In this document: positions 3,523-56,907 of the stretch, in pieces
Position numbering within the stretch: the first letter of the stretch is position 1
How the letters are laid out: each line of letters begins with the position of its first letter
Assembly: GCA_017745295.1 (NCBI GenBank)
Contig: JAGHZR010000003.1
Location: forward strand, 1-64,000
Direction of reading: 5' to 3'
Length of the DNA: 64,000 nucleotides
Source: Novosphingobium sp.
GTDB taxonomy: Bacteria > Pseudomonadota > Alphaproteobacteria > Sphingomonadales > Sphingomonadaceae
Notes under the pieces: generated by a model
Told to the model about the DNA's origin: nothing
Seen by the model: the letters and a program-made list of their open reading frames with translations, nothing else
The model's database searches: none
Position numbers and translations under genes: made by a program

Positions 3523-3694
3523 GCAGGGGAGCATAGCCCCCCTGCACCCCCAAAACTGTCGAGGTCAGGCGGACCAAATCCGTTGCGCGCCCACGGCTGC
3601 GTCGGGAGACTTAATGGCTGCGCCGCAAGGAGCGCACTACGGATAGATAGCGCGCGAGGTTGACATTCCGCGGGTCTGGGGGATCATCCCCCAG
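3523..3694. repeat. convergent-intergenic palindromic element, copy A
   Basis: This ~172-bp element is nearly identical to the reverse complement of the segments at 8687-8854 and 16848-17015. One end is a GCAGGGG...CCCCTGC hairpin (3523-3545) and the other a CTGGGGGAT/ATCCCCCAG hairpin (3676-3694). Inside are inverted partners such as TCCG...CGGA and GCGC tracts. It lies between the convergent SDR and aminotransferase genes. The 3676-3694 hairpin runs into the last codons of the aminotransferase. Confidence 0.85.
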
Positions 3695-4868
3695 GACTTA
3701 ATTCTTTCTTGAATTCTGAAAGCCTCTGAACAGCCTCATCCAGCACGCCATCCGGCTTGGTAAAGCAGAACCGAACGAGATGCTCGGGCACCTGATCGCC
3801 CTGATAGAGCGCGGAGACCGGCACGGTCGCCACCCCGGCCTCCAGCACGGCGCGTTCGCTGAAGGCGCTGTCCTTGAGCGCCAGCCCCGAAGCCGCGAGA
3901 TCGACGGTCAGGAACCATGTCGCCGCATTGGGGAGCACCATGTAGCCCGCTTCGGTCAACCCCGCCTTCAGGCGCGCGCGGGAAGCGGCCCATTCCGCGC
4001 GTTGTTCGTCCAGCACAGTATCGGGCAGTAAGAGGCCTTCGGCGACGGCCCATTGCAGCGGCACGGCGGTCGAGAAGGTCAGGAACTGGTGGGCGCGGGA
4101 GAGGGCGGTGGCGAGATGGCCTGACGCGATCATCCAGCCGATCTTCCAGCCGGTGAGGCCGAAAATCTTGCCTGCGGAGCCGATCTTTACCGTCCGTTCC
4201 GCCATGTCGGGGAAGCTCATGAGCGAGCGATGGGGCATGCCGTCGAAGCGCACGTCCTCCCAGACTTCGTCGCAGATCGCGATCAGGTCATGCGCGGCGC
4301 AGACCTGCGCGAGTCCGGAGAGTTCTTCGTAACTGGCGACCGTGCCTGCGGGATTGAGCGGGTCGTTGAGCATCACTGCGCGGGTCTGCGGCATGACGGC
4401 AGCTGCCAGCGCCTCGGCAGGATAGCGAAAATCCGGCGGTGAGAGCGGGATCGAGACGGGAATGCCGCCCGCGCGGCGTACGAGCGGCGCATAGGCATCG
4501 TAGGCGGGCTGGAACAGGATCACCTCGTTGCCCGGCTTCACCAGGGCGAAGACGGCGGCGGCGAGCGCTTCTGTGGCGCCGGAGGTGACGGTCACCTGCT
4601 CGGGCGAGAGCGCCAGTCCCTGCCGCCGGGCATAGTAGCCGCAGATCGCCTCGCGCAGTTCGGGAAGTCCGGCGCCCGGCGGGTATTGGCTCGATTTCTC
4701 GTGGAGCGCGCGGCTTGCCGCTTCGATCAGGGCGGGCGGCGGCAGGCCGTCGGGGAAGCCTTGCCCGAGGTTGATCGCGCCGTGCTCGCGGGCAAGCGCC
4801 GACATGCGGTCGAACACGGTGCGTTCCATGTCCGCGTAGACCGGGTGGATGCGGCCGGCTGTCTTCAT
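3684..4868 (-). CDS. PLP-dependent aminotransferase, class I/II fold
   Basis: The product (394 residues) resembles fold-type I aspartate/kynurenine-family aminotransferases. It has an N-terminal NLGQGFPDG motif, the PLP-pocket motif in variant form NDPLNPAG (usually NxPHNPTG), ICDEVWEDV with the cofactor-contacting Asp, and SAGKIFGLTGWKIGW with the Schiff-base lysine. The chosen ATG (4868, MKTAGRIHPVYAD) has a GAAGG ribosome-binding site seven bases upstream. An in-frame start at 4901 lacks one. The final residues (ELSPGG) are encoded inside the terminal hairpin of the adjacent repeat. The amino donor is not predictable. Confidence 0.9.
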   Translation of the reverse strand: MKTAGRIHPVYADMERTVFDRMSALAREHGAINLGQGFPDGLPPPALIEAASRALHEKSSQYPPGAGLPELREAICGYYARRQGLALSPEQVTVTSGATEALAAAVFALVKPGNEVILFQPAYDAYAPLVRRAGGIPVSIPLSPPDFRYPAEALAAAVMPQTRAVMLNDPLNPAGTVASYEELSGLAQVCAAHDLIAICDEVWEDVRFDGMPHRSLMSFPDMAERTVKIGSAGKIFGLTGWKIGWMIASGHLATALSRAHQFLTFSTAVPLQWAVAEGLLLPDTVLDEQRAEWAASRARLKAGLTEAGYMVLPNAATWFLTVDLAASGLALKDSAFSERAVLEAGVATVPVSALYQGDQVPEHLVRFCFTKPDGVLDEAVQRLSEFKKELSPGG

Positions 4869-8686: not shown

Positions 8687-8854
8687 CCGGGGGATGATCC
8701 CCCGGACCCTCGGAATGTCATCGTCGCGCGCTACCTATTCGTAGTGCGCTCCCTGCGGCGCAGCCATTAATGTCTTCCGGCGCAAGGGGCGCGCAAACCG
8801 ATAGTGCAGGGCACGACGCCGACAGTAACGGGGTGCAGGGGTAATAACACCTGC
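8687..8854. repeat. convergent-intergenic palindromic element, copy B
   Basis: A ~168-bp element in the same orientation as the copy at 16848 and inverted relative to that at 3523. It is bounded by a CCGGGGGAT/ATCCCCCGG hairpin (8687-8705) and a GCAGGGGT/ACACCTGC hairpin (8835-8854). It fills almost all the space between two convergent genes (stops at 8674 and 8868). It is the most diverged of the three copies. Confidence 0.82.
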
Positions 8855-8867
8855 ATTTTGCTTTAAC

Positions 8868-16838: not shown

Positions 16839-16847
16839 GGGAAAGTC

Positions 16848-17015
16848 CTGGGGGATGATCCCCCAGACCCTCGGAATGTCGACCTCGCGCGCACCCTATC
16901 CGGTGTGCGCTCCTTGCGGCGCAGCCAATAAGTCTCCCGACGCAGCCATGGGCGCGCAACGGATAGGTAGCGCCTGACCTCGACAGTAGCGGGGTGCAGG
17001 GGCGATGGCCCCTGC
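16848..17015. repeat. convergent-intergenic palindromic element, copy C
   Basis: A ~168-bp element whose reverse complement closely matches copy A. Terminal hairpins are CTGGGGGAT/ATCCCCCAG (16848-16866) and GCAGGGGC/GCCCCTGC (16996-17015). Internal partners CTATCCG (near 16905) and CGGATAG (near 16960), plus TGTCGA and TCGACA further out, make the whole an imperfect long inverted repeat. It lies between the convergent Anbu and GH43 genes. Confidence 0.85.
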
Positions 17016-17034
17016 TTATCCCTTGTTCTTCCAA

Positions 17035-23543: not shown

Positions 23544-23620
23544 CGTCATTGCGAGCGTAGCGAAGCAATCCAGGGCGGTTTTGTGCGACTCTGGATTGCC
23601 TCGCTACGCTCGCAATGACG
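23544..23620. repeat. GTCATTGCGAG inverted repeat pair
   Basis: Head-to-head pair: CGTCATTGCGAGCGTAGC...CAATCC on the plus strand, a short spacer, then its inverted copy ending CGCAATGACG. It lies between the cupin gene and the convergent tesB and can form a long hairpin. Confidence 0.88.
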
Positions 23621-32211: not shown

Positions 32212-32294
32212 CGTCATTGCGAGCGGCGAAGCCGCGCGGCAATCCAGGGGCGTTGCAAACCGCCCTGGATTGCTTCGCTCTGCTCGCAATGACG
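32212..32294. repeat. GTCATTGCGAG inverted repeat pair
   Basis: Head-to-head pair between fadB and the acyl-CoA dehydrogenase gene. The left arm carries an expanded middle (GCGGCGAAGCCGCGCG). The right arm ends CTCGCAATGACG. It is inserted within the beta-oxidation operon, 52 bp before the dehydrogenase start. Confidence 0.88.
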
Positions 32295-34161: not shown

Positions 34162-34204
34162 CGTCATTGCGAGGAAGCGAAGCTGACGAAGCAATCCAGA
34201 GCGG
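34162..34204 (+). repeat. GTCATTGCGAG repeat, left arm of GIY-YIG cassette
   Basis: CGTCATTGCGAGG...GAAGCAATCCAGAGCGG on the plus strand. It pairs with the inverted copy at 34529-34568. The stop codon of the GIY-YIG reading frame lies 27 bp inside this arm. Confidence 0.85.
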
Positions 34205-34230
34205 CATAACGCCCCCTTCGGATCGCTTCG

Positions 34231-34528
34231 TCAGCCGCAGATGCTCTCAAACAGATCATCCCAAAGCGGATTTTCCGCCTCGATCAACGCGGTCTTTCGC
34301 TTGCGGGAGCCGCCTTTGAGTTGCTTCTCGCGCACGATGGCATGCTCCATGGTGGAATGCAGTTCGAACCACACGAGGCGCTTGCAGTTGTAGCTTGGAA
34401 AATCCATCGATCACGCCTTCACGATGCTGGAAAGCGCGTTTGGGCAAATCGGATGTCACGCCGACGTAGAGCGTACCGTTGCGAGCGCTTGCGACAATGT
34501 AGACGGTGGGCTGGAAGTCGCGCTGCAT
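34231..34528 (-). pseudogene. GIY-YIG nuclease (YhbQ/UvrC-type small domain), frameshifted
   Basis: Starting at ATG 34528, codons read MQRDFQPTVYIVASARNGTL and then YVGVTSDLPKRAFQHREGVIDGFSK, the N-terminal half of the small single-domain GIY-YIG nucleases. The frame then leaves the family pattern and would stop at 34256. Shifting frame at AAG-C-TAC restores the expected C-terminal half: YNCKRLVWFELHSTMEHAI, REKQLKGGSRKRKTALIE, ENPLWDDLFESICG, with a stop at 34231-34233. One extra base (or two missing) near 34389-34394 therefore breaks the gene. The metal-binding Glu (ENPLW) is in the shifted half. ATG abuts the right-hand inverted repeat. Confidence 0.85.
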
Positions 34529-34568
34529 CGCTCTGGATTGCTTCGTCGCTTCGCTCCTCGCAATGACG
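34529..34568 (-). repeat. GTCATTGCGAG repeat, right arm of GIY-YIG cassette
   Basis: Inverted copy (CGCTCTGGATTGCTTCG...CTCGCAATGACG) that touches the GIY-YIG start codon at 34528. Confidence 0.87.
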
Positions 34569-34619
34569 GATGGGGTTATAATTTTGTCATGGTGGACGAT
34601 CTTCGTCCTACCCACTTTT

Positions 34620-34654
34620 CGTCATTGCGAGCGTAGCGAAGCTATCCAGAGCGG
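34620..34654 (+). repeat. GTCATTGCGAG repeat, third copy
   Basis: CGTCATTGCGAGCGTAGCGAAGCTATCCAGAGCGG, with one change (CAATCC to CTATCC), 51 bp beyond the cassette's right arm and 20 bp before the end of the cytochrome b561 gene. Confidence 0.87.
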
Positions 34655-38298: not shown

Positions 38299-38346
38299 CT
38301 TGCGCTTCGATTTCGTGTCTGAGAGGCTGCCTCTCCCGCTTCGGAA

Positions 38347-38372
38347 GGATCCTGAAACAAGGTCGGGATGAC
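38347..38372 (-). repeat. degenerate single copy of the GTCATCCTGAAC repeat
   Basis: GGATCCTGAAACAAGGTCGGGATGAC matches the reverse-complement arm found at 56881-56907 with a few changes. It lies in the 176-bp gap between the LysR gene and the DUF1932 dehydrogenase gene. Confidence 0.6.
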
Positions 38373-38474
38373 GGGAGGGCGGTGAGAAGTGCTCGATCCG
38401 CTCATTACGCGAAGCTTATAGCTTCCGGGCGGTTCCAATTGGCCGATTTCGGGCGATCGGGGCAGACTGGCAAT

Positions 38475-43717: not shown

Positions 43718-43730
43718 GGCGTTCGATCTA

Positions 43731-43836
43731 ATCGCTCTGGATTGCTTCGCTTCGCTCGCAATGACGAAGCAAGGGGGCGTTGCATACCCCACTTCGTCAT
43801 TGCGAGGAGCGCAGCGACGAAGCAATCCAGAGCGAT
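43731..43836. repeat. GTCATTGCGAG inverted repeat pair, tail-to-tail
   Basis: The arms are ATCGCTCTGGATTGC...CAATGACG (43731-43766) and CGTCATTGCGAGG...AATCCAGAGCGAT (43795-43836). Here the AATGACG ends face each other, opposite to the pair at 23544. The outer ends read ATCGCTCTGG and CCAGAGCGAT, an exact 10-bp inverted repeat. Confidence 0.88.
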
Positions 43837-56773: not shown

Positions 56774-56907
56774 GTCATCCTGAACTTGTTTCAGGATCCA
56801 TCTCTCAGCATCGCCCGGCGGTCGCGTGAACAATGCCGCGATTGCAATTTGCCACTCGCAACACTGCGTTAGCGGCGGGATGGATCCTGAAACAAGTTCA
56901 GGATGAC
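56774..56907. repeat. 27-bp inverted pair (GTCATCCTGAACTTG...)
   Basis: The arm at 56774-56800 (GTCATCCTGAAC...CAGGATCCA) is repeated exactly inverted at 56881-56907, with 80 bp between. The arm is itself partly palindromic (CCTGAAC-TTGTTTCAGG). It lies between the MFS promoter region and the 3' end of cysH. Confidence 0.88.

Follow-up and report, generated by a model that had tools for sequence, protein, structure and literature searches.

The window analysed here, a 64,000-nucleotide stretch of Novosphingobium sp. (positions 1 to 64,000 of contig JAGHZR010000003.1, assembly GCA_017745295.1), contains a small GIY-YIG nuclease gene on the reverse strand (34231-34528), recognized by a Pfam match, that is enclosed by inverted copies of a dispersed repeat designated family A. 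As read from the sequence, the left arm (CGTCATTGCGAG...GAAGCAATCCAGAGCGG, with a core abundant throughout the genome) occupies 34162-34204 on the forward strand and the right arm, an inverted copy, occupies 34533-34568 on the reverse strand. An additional lone family A arm lies beside the unit at 34620-34654 (forward strand). This arrangement agrees with the original prediction, which had placed a GIY-YIG gene between inverted repeat copies, its ATG touching one arm and its stop lying 27 bp inside the other: the start codon at 34528 adjoins the right arm, CGCTCTGG being part of the repeat from 34529, and the stop codon (34233-34231) is 27 bp from the left arm.

The accompanying claim of a repeat-nuclease-repeat unit at 34162-34568 holds with regard to the presence of the gene but not to its integrity, as the reading frame is broken near 34395, with the part up to GVIDGF in one frame and the remainder to the stop in another. 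The Pfam GIY-YIG domain match (34397-34507, 27.6 bits) covers the first part of the gene only; when both pieces were searched separately, each obtained its best scores against the eight A-flanked proteins among 97 GIY-YIG proteins. Unless an error in the draft assembly is responsible for the frameshift, the window copy is a pseudogene, and an active nuclease encoded at this position was accordingly rejected.

This genome contains 121 copies of the family A core CGTCATTGCGAG (57+64; control 0+0), which persist with the A-family gene decayed. Among three gene-free pairs noted earlier at 23544, 32212 and 43731, the first two are inward-facing doublets of 77 bp (23544-23620) and 83 bp (32212-32294), which fold with z-scores of -11.3 and -7.4, respectively, against shuffled sequences, whereas the third (43730-43830) consists of two outward-facing arms, at 43730-43766 on the minus strand and 43795-43830 on the plus strand. 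When the first 100 entries in the list of family A sites were inspected, 74 proved to belong to inward doublets of 67-86 bp. Apart from UvrC and the window gene, this genome contains two small GIY-YIG genes, both enclosed by other families: one (L001) by CCCGCTCAGGCTGAGCTTGTCGAAGCCC of family S, whose core occurs 53 times including the unit's own two arms (control 0), and the other (L002) by CGTCATCCCAGCGAAAGCTGGGACC of family R3, whose degenerate core occurs 7 times versus 2 in the control. The exact R3 core is found three times, two of them being the arms of the L002 unit; the R3 unit is hardly dispersed. Family T has 51 cores in this genome, in which a T-type GIY-YIG gene is absent. Two places in the window carry family T (GTCATCCTGAACTTGTTTCAGGATCC): an inward doublet without a gene occupies 56774-56907, and a single arm, diverged in sequence, lies near 38344 (38344-38383). 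A longer, unrelated repeat (GGGGGATGATCCCCC...GCGGCGCAGCCA) is present in three window copies (3548-3699, 8689-8863 and 16843-17024). One copy is inverted, and over 82 bp the three share roughly 87-91% of their sequence.

Enclosure of small GIY-YIG genes by inverted repeats

Enclosure was scored by comparing the 250 bp upstream of the GIY-YIG domain with the 330 bp downstream of it and taking the highest-scoring inverted match. The genus set comprised the small GIY-YIG matches listed from 59 genomes of the genus together with the window gene, added by hand (98 genes); two were left out for short flanks, leaving 96 testable genes, and weak or decayed genes are under-counted among the matches listed. 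At score thresholds which, like the arm-family patterns, were chosen after seeing the data, 84 of these 96 genes are enclosed by inverted arms at a score of at least 18 and 91 at a score of at least 15. Control ORFs in the same stretches, tested with slightly different flank windows, reach these scores in 1 and 5 of 498 cases, respectively, in line with the earlier expectation that inverted copies would flank small GIY-YIG genes much more frequently than they flank genes of other kinds. Among control ORFs of 240-450 nt at the same loci, 1 of 87 is enclosed, and swapped downstream flanks reach 18 in 84 of 960 pairings between genomes and 16 of 190 within genomes. The 12 genus genes scoring below 18 include five below 15, among them a SpoU-methylase fusion (G012) and two second tandem domains whose ORFs continue with similar sequence.

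A second set, covering Pseudomonadota, comprised 70 of the 72 places listed down to an E value of 1.7e-14 from 150 genomes; omitted were a place at a contig edge and the C7 gene of the present genome, which had been counted before. A score of 18 is reached by 27 of the 70 (swapped flanks, 69 of 4830). When split by protein type, with a motif rule written once the scores were seen, 27 of 39 repeat-type genes are enclosed, compared to 0 of 27 YhbQ-like genes (GAK/GAR motif) and 0 of 4 others, which fall in neither group and all score below 15. A third scan took the best 80 matches from named genomes of several phyla, including Nitrospira, Desulfobulbaceae, Dehalococcoidia, Nitrospinae, Methylobacter, Xanthomonas and Neisseria; two loci were left out for short flanks, and several loci overlap with the genus set. 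Among these best 80 matches, 59 of 78 testable loci reach 18 (control ORFs, 0 of 62), as do 34 of the 50 loci outside sphingomonads and rows named only Alphaproteobacteria.

Coincidence would mean that dispersed palindromes fill so many intergenic gaps that small stand-alone genes are often flanked. The repeats are indeed dispersed and abundant (121 A cores), but chance, or a general trait of small genes, is ruled out as the cause of enclosure by the control ORFs (1 of 87 even for short ones), the swapped flanks and the YhbQ-like genes, and the matching of nuclease clades to repeat families described below would be left unexplained; we give this explanation almost no credence. On the sequences compared, enclosure of small GIY-YIG genes by inverted arms of dispersed palindromes appears to be a general rule.

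Among individual loci of the named-genome scan, a Neisseria GIY-YIG gene (L266) lies between inverted GGATTCCCGCTTTCGCGGGAATGACG arms with a score of 20; these arms resemble the dRS3 repeat known from this genus.

Nuclease clades and their palindrome families

Most of the encoded proteins are approximately 90-120 residues long. In three proteins scanned with Pfam, GIY-YIG (PF01541, 42.9-59.8 bits) is the only domain, with no second domain, such as NUMODs, a separate DNA-binding domain or a reverse transcriptase, being found; NCBIfam provided no name for any of four proteins. Residues Y10, G23, R31, H35, E68 and N87 are invariant in 54 relatives and Y21 is nearly so, and we take these to be catalytic-type residues, with roles assigned from the superfamily. 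The nuclease is under purifying selection: 123 within-family pairs give a median dN/dS of 0.17, with 93% of the values below 0.5 (R2 is highest, at 0.48). An AlphaFold2 model (pLDDT 88.5) is nearest to UPF0213 structures, 1zg2 being the best match (best E 0.0027, TM 0.55), followed by UvrC and Slx1.

These features bear on the possibility that the proteins are structure-specific housekeeping nucleases which trim or resolve repeat hairpins and which the host retains; the arms next to the gene would then be regulatory or bystanders. Purifying selection, structural relatives including Slx1 and UvrC, and the armless GIY-YIG/SpoU-methylase fusion in G012 would fit such a role, but the presence of the genes is patchy (0 to 5 small genes per genome of the genus, among the matches listed), several near-identical copies occur within single genomes, YhbQ-like genes are not enclosed, and decay is frequent, with in-frame stops in 6 of 60 translated relatives from the named-genome scan as well as the broken window gene. 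We consider a housekeeping function decidedly improbable.

Eight arm families were distinguished by their cores: A (TTGCGAG), T (TGAACTTGTTTCA), S (TGAGCTTGTCGA), Q (CGAGCGAAG), G (GTGCTTGAC or GGGCTTGAC), R1 (ATTCCCGCG), R2 (CCCCGCG) and R3 (CCAGCG). When placed on a protein tree, with eight labels on 86 of 97 rows, 11 unlabelled rows left out and four rows set to "other" by hand, the labels require nine changes, close to the possible minimum of seven and far from the mean of 58.2 with shuffled labels, none of 200 shuffles giving as few; a tree from the GIY-YIG domain alone likewise gives nine. Each of R1, S, T, A and Q is confined to a single group, while G, R3 and R2 are not single clades and need 2, 2 and 5 changes, respectively. 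It thus appears from the tree that each GIY-YIG clade mostly has its own palindrome family. Since arms and gene are physically linked, this match indicates that units have stayed together across loci and time, and alone it does not demonstrate recognition of the arms by the nuclease.

Repeat number also follows the cognate gene, as had been anticipated. Median exact-core counts in the 59 genus genomes with versus without the cognate gene are 58.5 versus 1 for A, 8.5 versus 0 for T and 4 versus 0 for G, where the A gene set includes the window's broken gene and the T set two genes with stops. Ignoring genome kinship, the corresponding p values are 8e-5, 8e-5 and 2e-10, or 1e-4, 4e-4 and 3e-7 after subtraction of the unit's own arms. 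Three of 12 off-type comparisons also give p<0.05 (T copies with G genes, T copies with S genes and G copies with T genes). An exception is G029, which contains 497 exact A cores, far above the other 58 genomes, with an A-type gene absent among the matches listed. Loss of the gene with repeats lasting would yield both this exception and that of family T in the present genome, a suggestion with which the window's broken gene is in line.

Arms of several families share a CGTC foot. It is present in most arms of T (11+11 of 12+12), G (16+16 of 17+17) and R1 (12+14 of 14+14), and elsewhere in 6+7 of 9+9 A arms, 6+3 of 7+7 R3 arms, 4+4 of 12+12 R2 arms and 1 of 40 S and Q arms, the latter beginning with CCGTT or CCGCT. 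In 47 distinct CGTC-foot arms from families other than S, Q and A, the stem has on average 7.19 paired positions out of 8, compared to 4.75 when 3' halves are dealt among arms (maximum 5.17 in 200 rounds), and seven of the eight positions show at least two pair types. The 8-bp stem thus appears to covary, its structure being preserved with its sequence changing. The folding of single arms exceeds that of shuffled sequences in R1, T and G (z -3.6 to -4.2) but not in A, S and Q. In genes of the S, Q and T types (e.g., L108 and L048), the reading frame often enters the downstream arm, so that the last residues (such as ASTSSA) are repeat-encoded.

With a foot plus hairpin and inverted doublets, these repeats resemble REPs, and it is conceivable that another enzyme, a RAYT or IS transposase, moves the arms with the GIY-YIG gene as cargo. 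A Y1 (RAYT-type) match is present in 17 of the 59 genus genomes. However, a search covering the Y1 type found none in the other 42, including the present genome (89.6% complete) and G006, G015, G018, G027 and G031, each of which has 46-74 A copies, and cargo would not be expected as one enzyme type matched to each arm family. The missing Y1 match in this and other repeat-rich genomes makes RAYT unlikely as the driver, and we see little prospect for a passenger role of the nuclease gene.

Units at several loci, empty sites and deletion derivatives

Near-identical units, 92-97% alike over 420-489 bp, are located at different loci of a single genome in G047 (three units) and in G003, G005 and G018 (two each), with the similarity stopping at the arms or some tens of bases beyond. 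Empty orthologous sites, which had been proposed for comparison, were found, one of them at the window's own site: G057 (L276) shares both the gene upstream (92% identical) and the sequence downstream, with a gap of about 100 bp between them and without the unit, while in other relatives compared the downstream sequence is mostly different. A second site lies between two genes that, judging from their sequences, are presumably rnc and era; this gap is short and empty in G022 and G047, holds a gene-free S doublet in G023 and a gene-bearing S unit in G012. No target duplication was seen at the empty sites, whose flanks are too diverged to place one, so that this part of the proposed comparison could not be judged.

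The gene-free copies are partly traceable to gene-bearing ones. Among seven fetched G-family inward pairs with 100-320 bp inside, six (L303-L306 in G003, L307 in G055 and L308 in G050) match pieces of the gene unit's interior at 78-99% identity with differing junctions, which indicates that part of the gene-free progeny derives from the gene unit by deletion. The seventh (L302, 313 bp inside) and ten shorter pairs (L309-L318, 30-80 bp) showed no match to gene remnants; of two T-family pairs, L319 has one weak 28-base match to the gene interior and L321 none. Gene remnants in every inward pair were accordingly rejected. In G028, doublets at two loci (L316 and L317) contain almost identical loops, which looks like copying that followed the loss of the gene. 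The insides of nine T doublets of G029 are no more alike than their flanks, and the loops of 11 A doublets of the present genome are more than 85% alike in 1 of 55 pairs; neither set supports amplification of doublets as fixed sequences.

The main rival explanation concerns the direction of this relationship. In a homing-like process, a free-standing nuclease would cut gene-free doublets of its own family, and repair that uses the arms as homology would copy the gene into the cut doublets, which themselves would spread by other means. The GIY-YIG fold is that of homing endonucleases, according to the accessible sections of a 2006 survey (PMC1564403), and the rnc-era gap, with its gene-free doublet in one genome and gene-bearing unit in another, is what such copying could produce. 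On the other hand, G022 and G047 have neither doublet nor unit in this gap, the six deletion derivatives point in the reverse direction, no DNA-binding domain beside GIY-YIG was found in the three scanned proteins, and the spread of the doublets would be left unexplained. We therefore regard homing into doublets as unlikely.

Several minor observations were made at individual sites. At L108 (11423-11563), this genome has an S doublet in a gap that in other genomes has R2 gene units 67 (G037, L079) and 59 (G053, L071), as if some intergenic gaps attracted different repeat families. A GGGTGG..AGCGG motif occurs within 120 bp of 5 of 91 units (L108, L057, L094, L097 and L106), above background, and forms outer inverted copies around the G047 units; with 5 of 91, it was rejected as a general outer motif.

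Relation to known mobile systems

Taken across genomes, the comparison brings out enclosure, a match between clade and family, units at several loci, empty sites, gene-free doublets and deletion derivatives, all as read from sequence. The window probably contains a decayed copy of an arm-bounded unit with a stand-alone GIY-YIG gene as its only gene, and the nuclease of each family would probably move its own repeat, in a manner similar to that proposed for RAYT transposases and REPINs. In such a process, the nuclease would recognize the foot and hairpin of its own arms, possibly in single-stranded or cruciform DNA, and cut or nick there; host replication or repair might then carry the unit to new intergenic places, and gene-free doublets could be carried likewise, with the nuclease acting in trans. 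To our knowledge, GIY-YIG enzymes form no covalent intermediate, so that rejoining would need host functions.

The RAYT/REPIN-like system with a GIY-YIG endonuclease that had originally been suggested is supported by enclosure and copy number and in part by the empty sites, and the parallel palindrome families with their own GIY-YIG clades extend the idea beyond a single repeat. The features of RAYT/REPIN used for comparison come from the accessible part of a TnpA-REP survey (PMC6006769). Shared with that system, as described there, are dispersed intergenic foot-plus-hairpin repeats, mostly in inverted doublets; an enzyme gene that has copies of its own repeat family on its flanks (here 84 of 96 enclosed, with clade matching family); and the coexistence in one genome of several families, to each of which a particular enzyme type belongs. 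The systems differ in that the enzyme is GIY-YIG rather than an HUH Y1 (TnpA-REP) transposase, the foot of the T, G and R1 types is CGTC rather than GT[AG]G, and there is exactly one arm per side with the gene unit at several loci, whereas REPtrons are said in the same part of that survey not to transpose as a unit (PMC6006769).

Other systems share fewer features. GIY-YIG homing endonucleases of the I-TevI type belong to the same catalytic superfamily (GIY-YIG domain, PF01541) and have a similarly selfish life style, with the gene in sites that are empty in relatives. However, the present units are intergenic, encode proteins mostly of about 90-120 residues without a second domain (three scanned), and are bounded by inverted repeats also present in many gene-free copies; the available portion of the 2006 survey reports that GIY-YIG homing enzymes were not found in Alphaproteobacteria (PMC1564403). 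UPF0213/YhbQ-like proteins are comparable in size and fold, with 1zg2 as the best structural match, but the YhbQ-like genes of Pseudomonadota lack inverted arms (0 of 27). IS elements with MITEs likewise combine terminal inverted repeats, a gene-bearing unit and internal-deletion derivatives (here 6 of 7 longer G-family pairs), but the present units code for GIY-YIG only, without a known transposase, and the arms of several families are themselves hairpins; as to target duplication, none was seen here, the flanks of empty sites being too diverged. In Penelope-like retroelements, which combine GIY-YIG with a reverse transcriptase, a GIY-YIG nuclease also serves a mobile element, as outlined in the accessible text of the 2006 survey (PMC1564403), but no reverse transcriptase domain was found in the three proteins scanned here.

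The GIY-YIG units are apparently an undescribed kind of mobile DNA, set apart from RAYT/REPIN by enzyme and foot and from homing endonucleases by domain make-up; if a kind were defined by layout alone, they would count as a variation on a known one. A search of titles and abstract starts in the open-access literature, outside which most subscription papers and all preprints lie, found among the entries listed no GIY-YIG genes tied to REPs or dispersed palindromes. We lean slightly towards the broader view that these units, with one small GIY-YIG gene between inverted hairpin-type arms and each clade moving its own palindromes, make up a superfamily of minimal mobile elements that has no kinship with any transposase known so far. 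This superfamily may be the origin of many palindromes for which no enzyme is known, the GTCATTCCCGCG...CGGGAAT type among them, both in Pseudomonadota and in further phyla.

Among the intergenic repeats of bacteria, short palindromes scattered over the genome are common, and many of them have no known enzyme. If palindrome families have cognate GIY-YIG nucleases, the question of what makes or moves them would become testable with single small enzymes. GIY-YIG would then join the enzyme types underlying DNA mobility, the units would represent a system that converged on the RAYT/REPIN arrangement from an enzyme of different ancestry, and they would offer a source of small nucleases with possible hairpin specificity. 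An answer might also be provided to a question raised in the available part of the 2006 survey, namely whether further GIY-YIG members are molecular parasites (PMC1564403).

A separate observation concerns fusions of GIY-YIG domains with SpoU-type methylases. At L110 in G012, a GIY-YIG domain without arms is in frame with a SpoU-type methylase (Pfam-checked in G012), and at L068 (G056) and L080 (G023), two tandem GIY-YIG domains lie ahead of SpoU-methylase-like sequence. These genes are possibly domesticated copies; a GIY-YIG/SPOUT methyltransferase fusion is noted for Erythrobacter in the accessible sections of the 2006 survey (PMC1564403).
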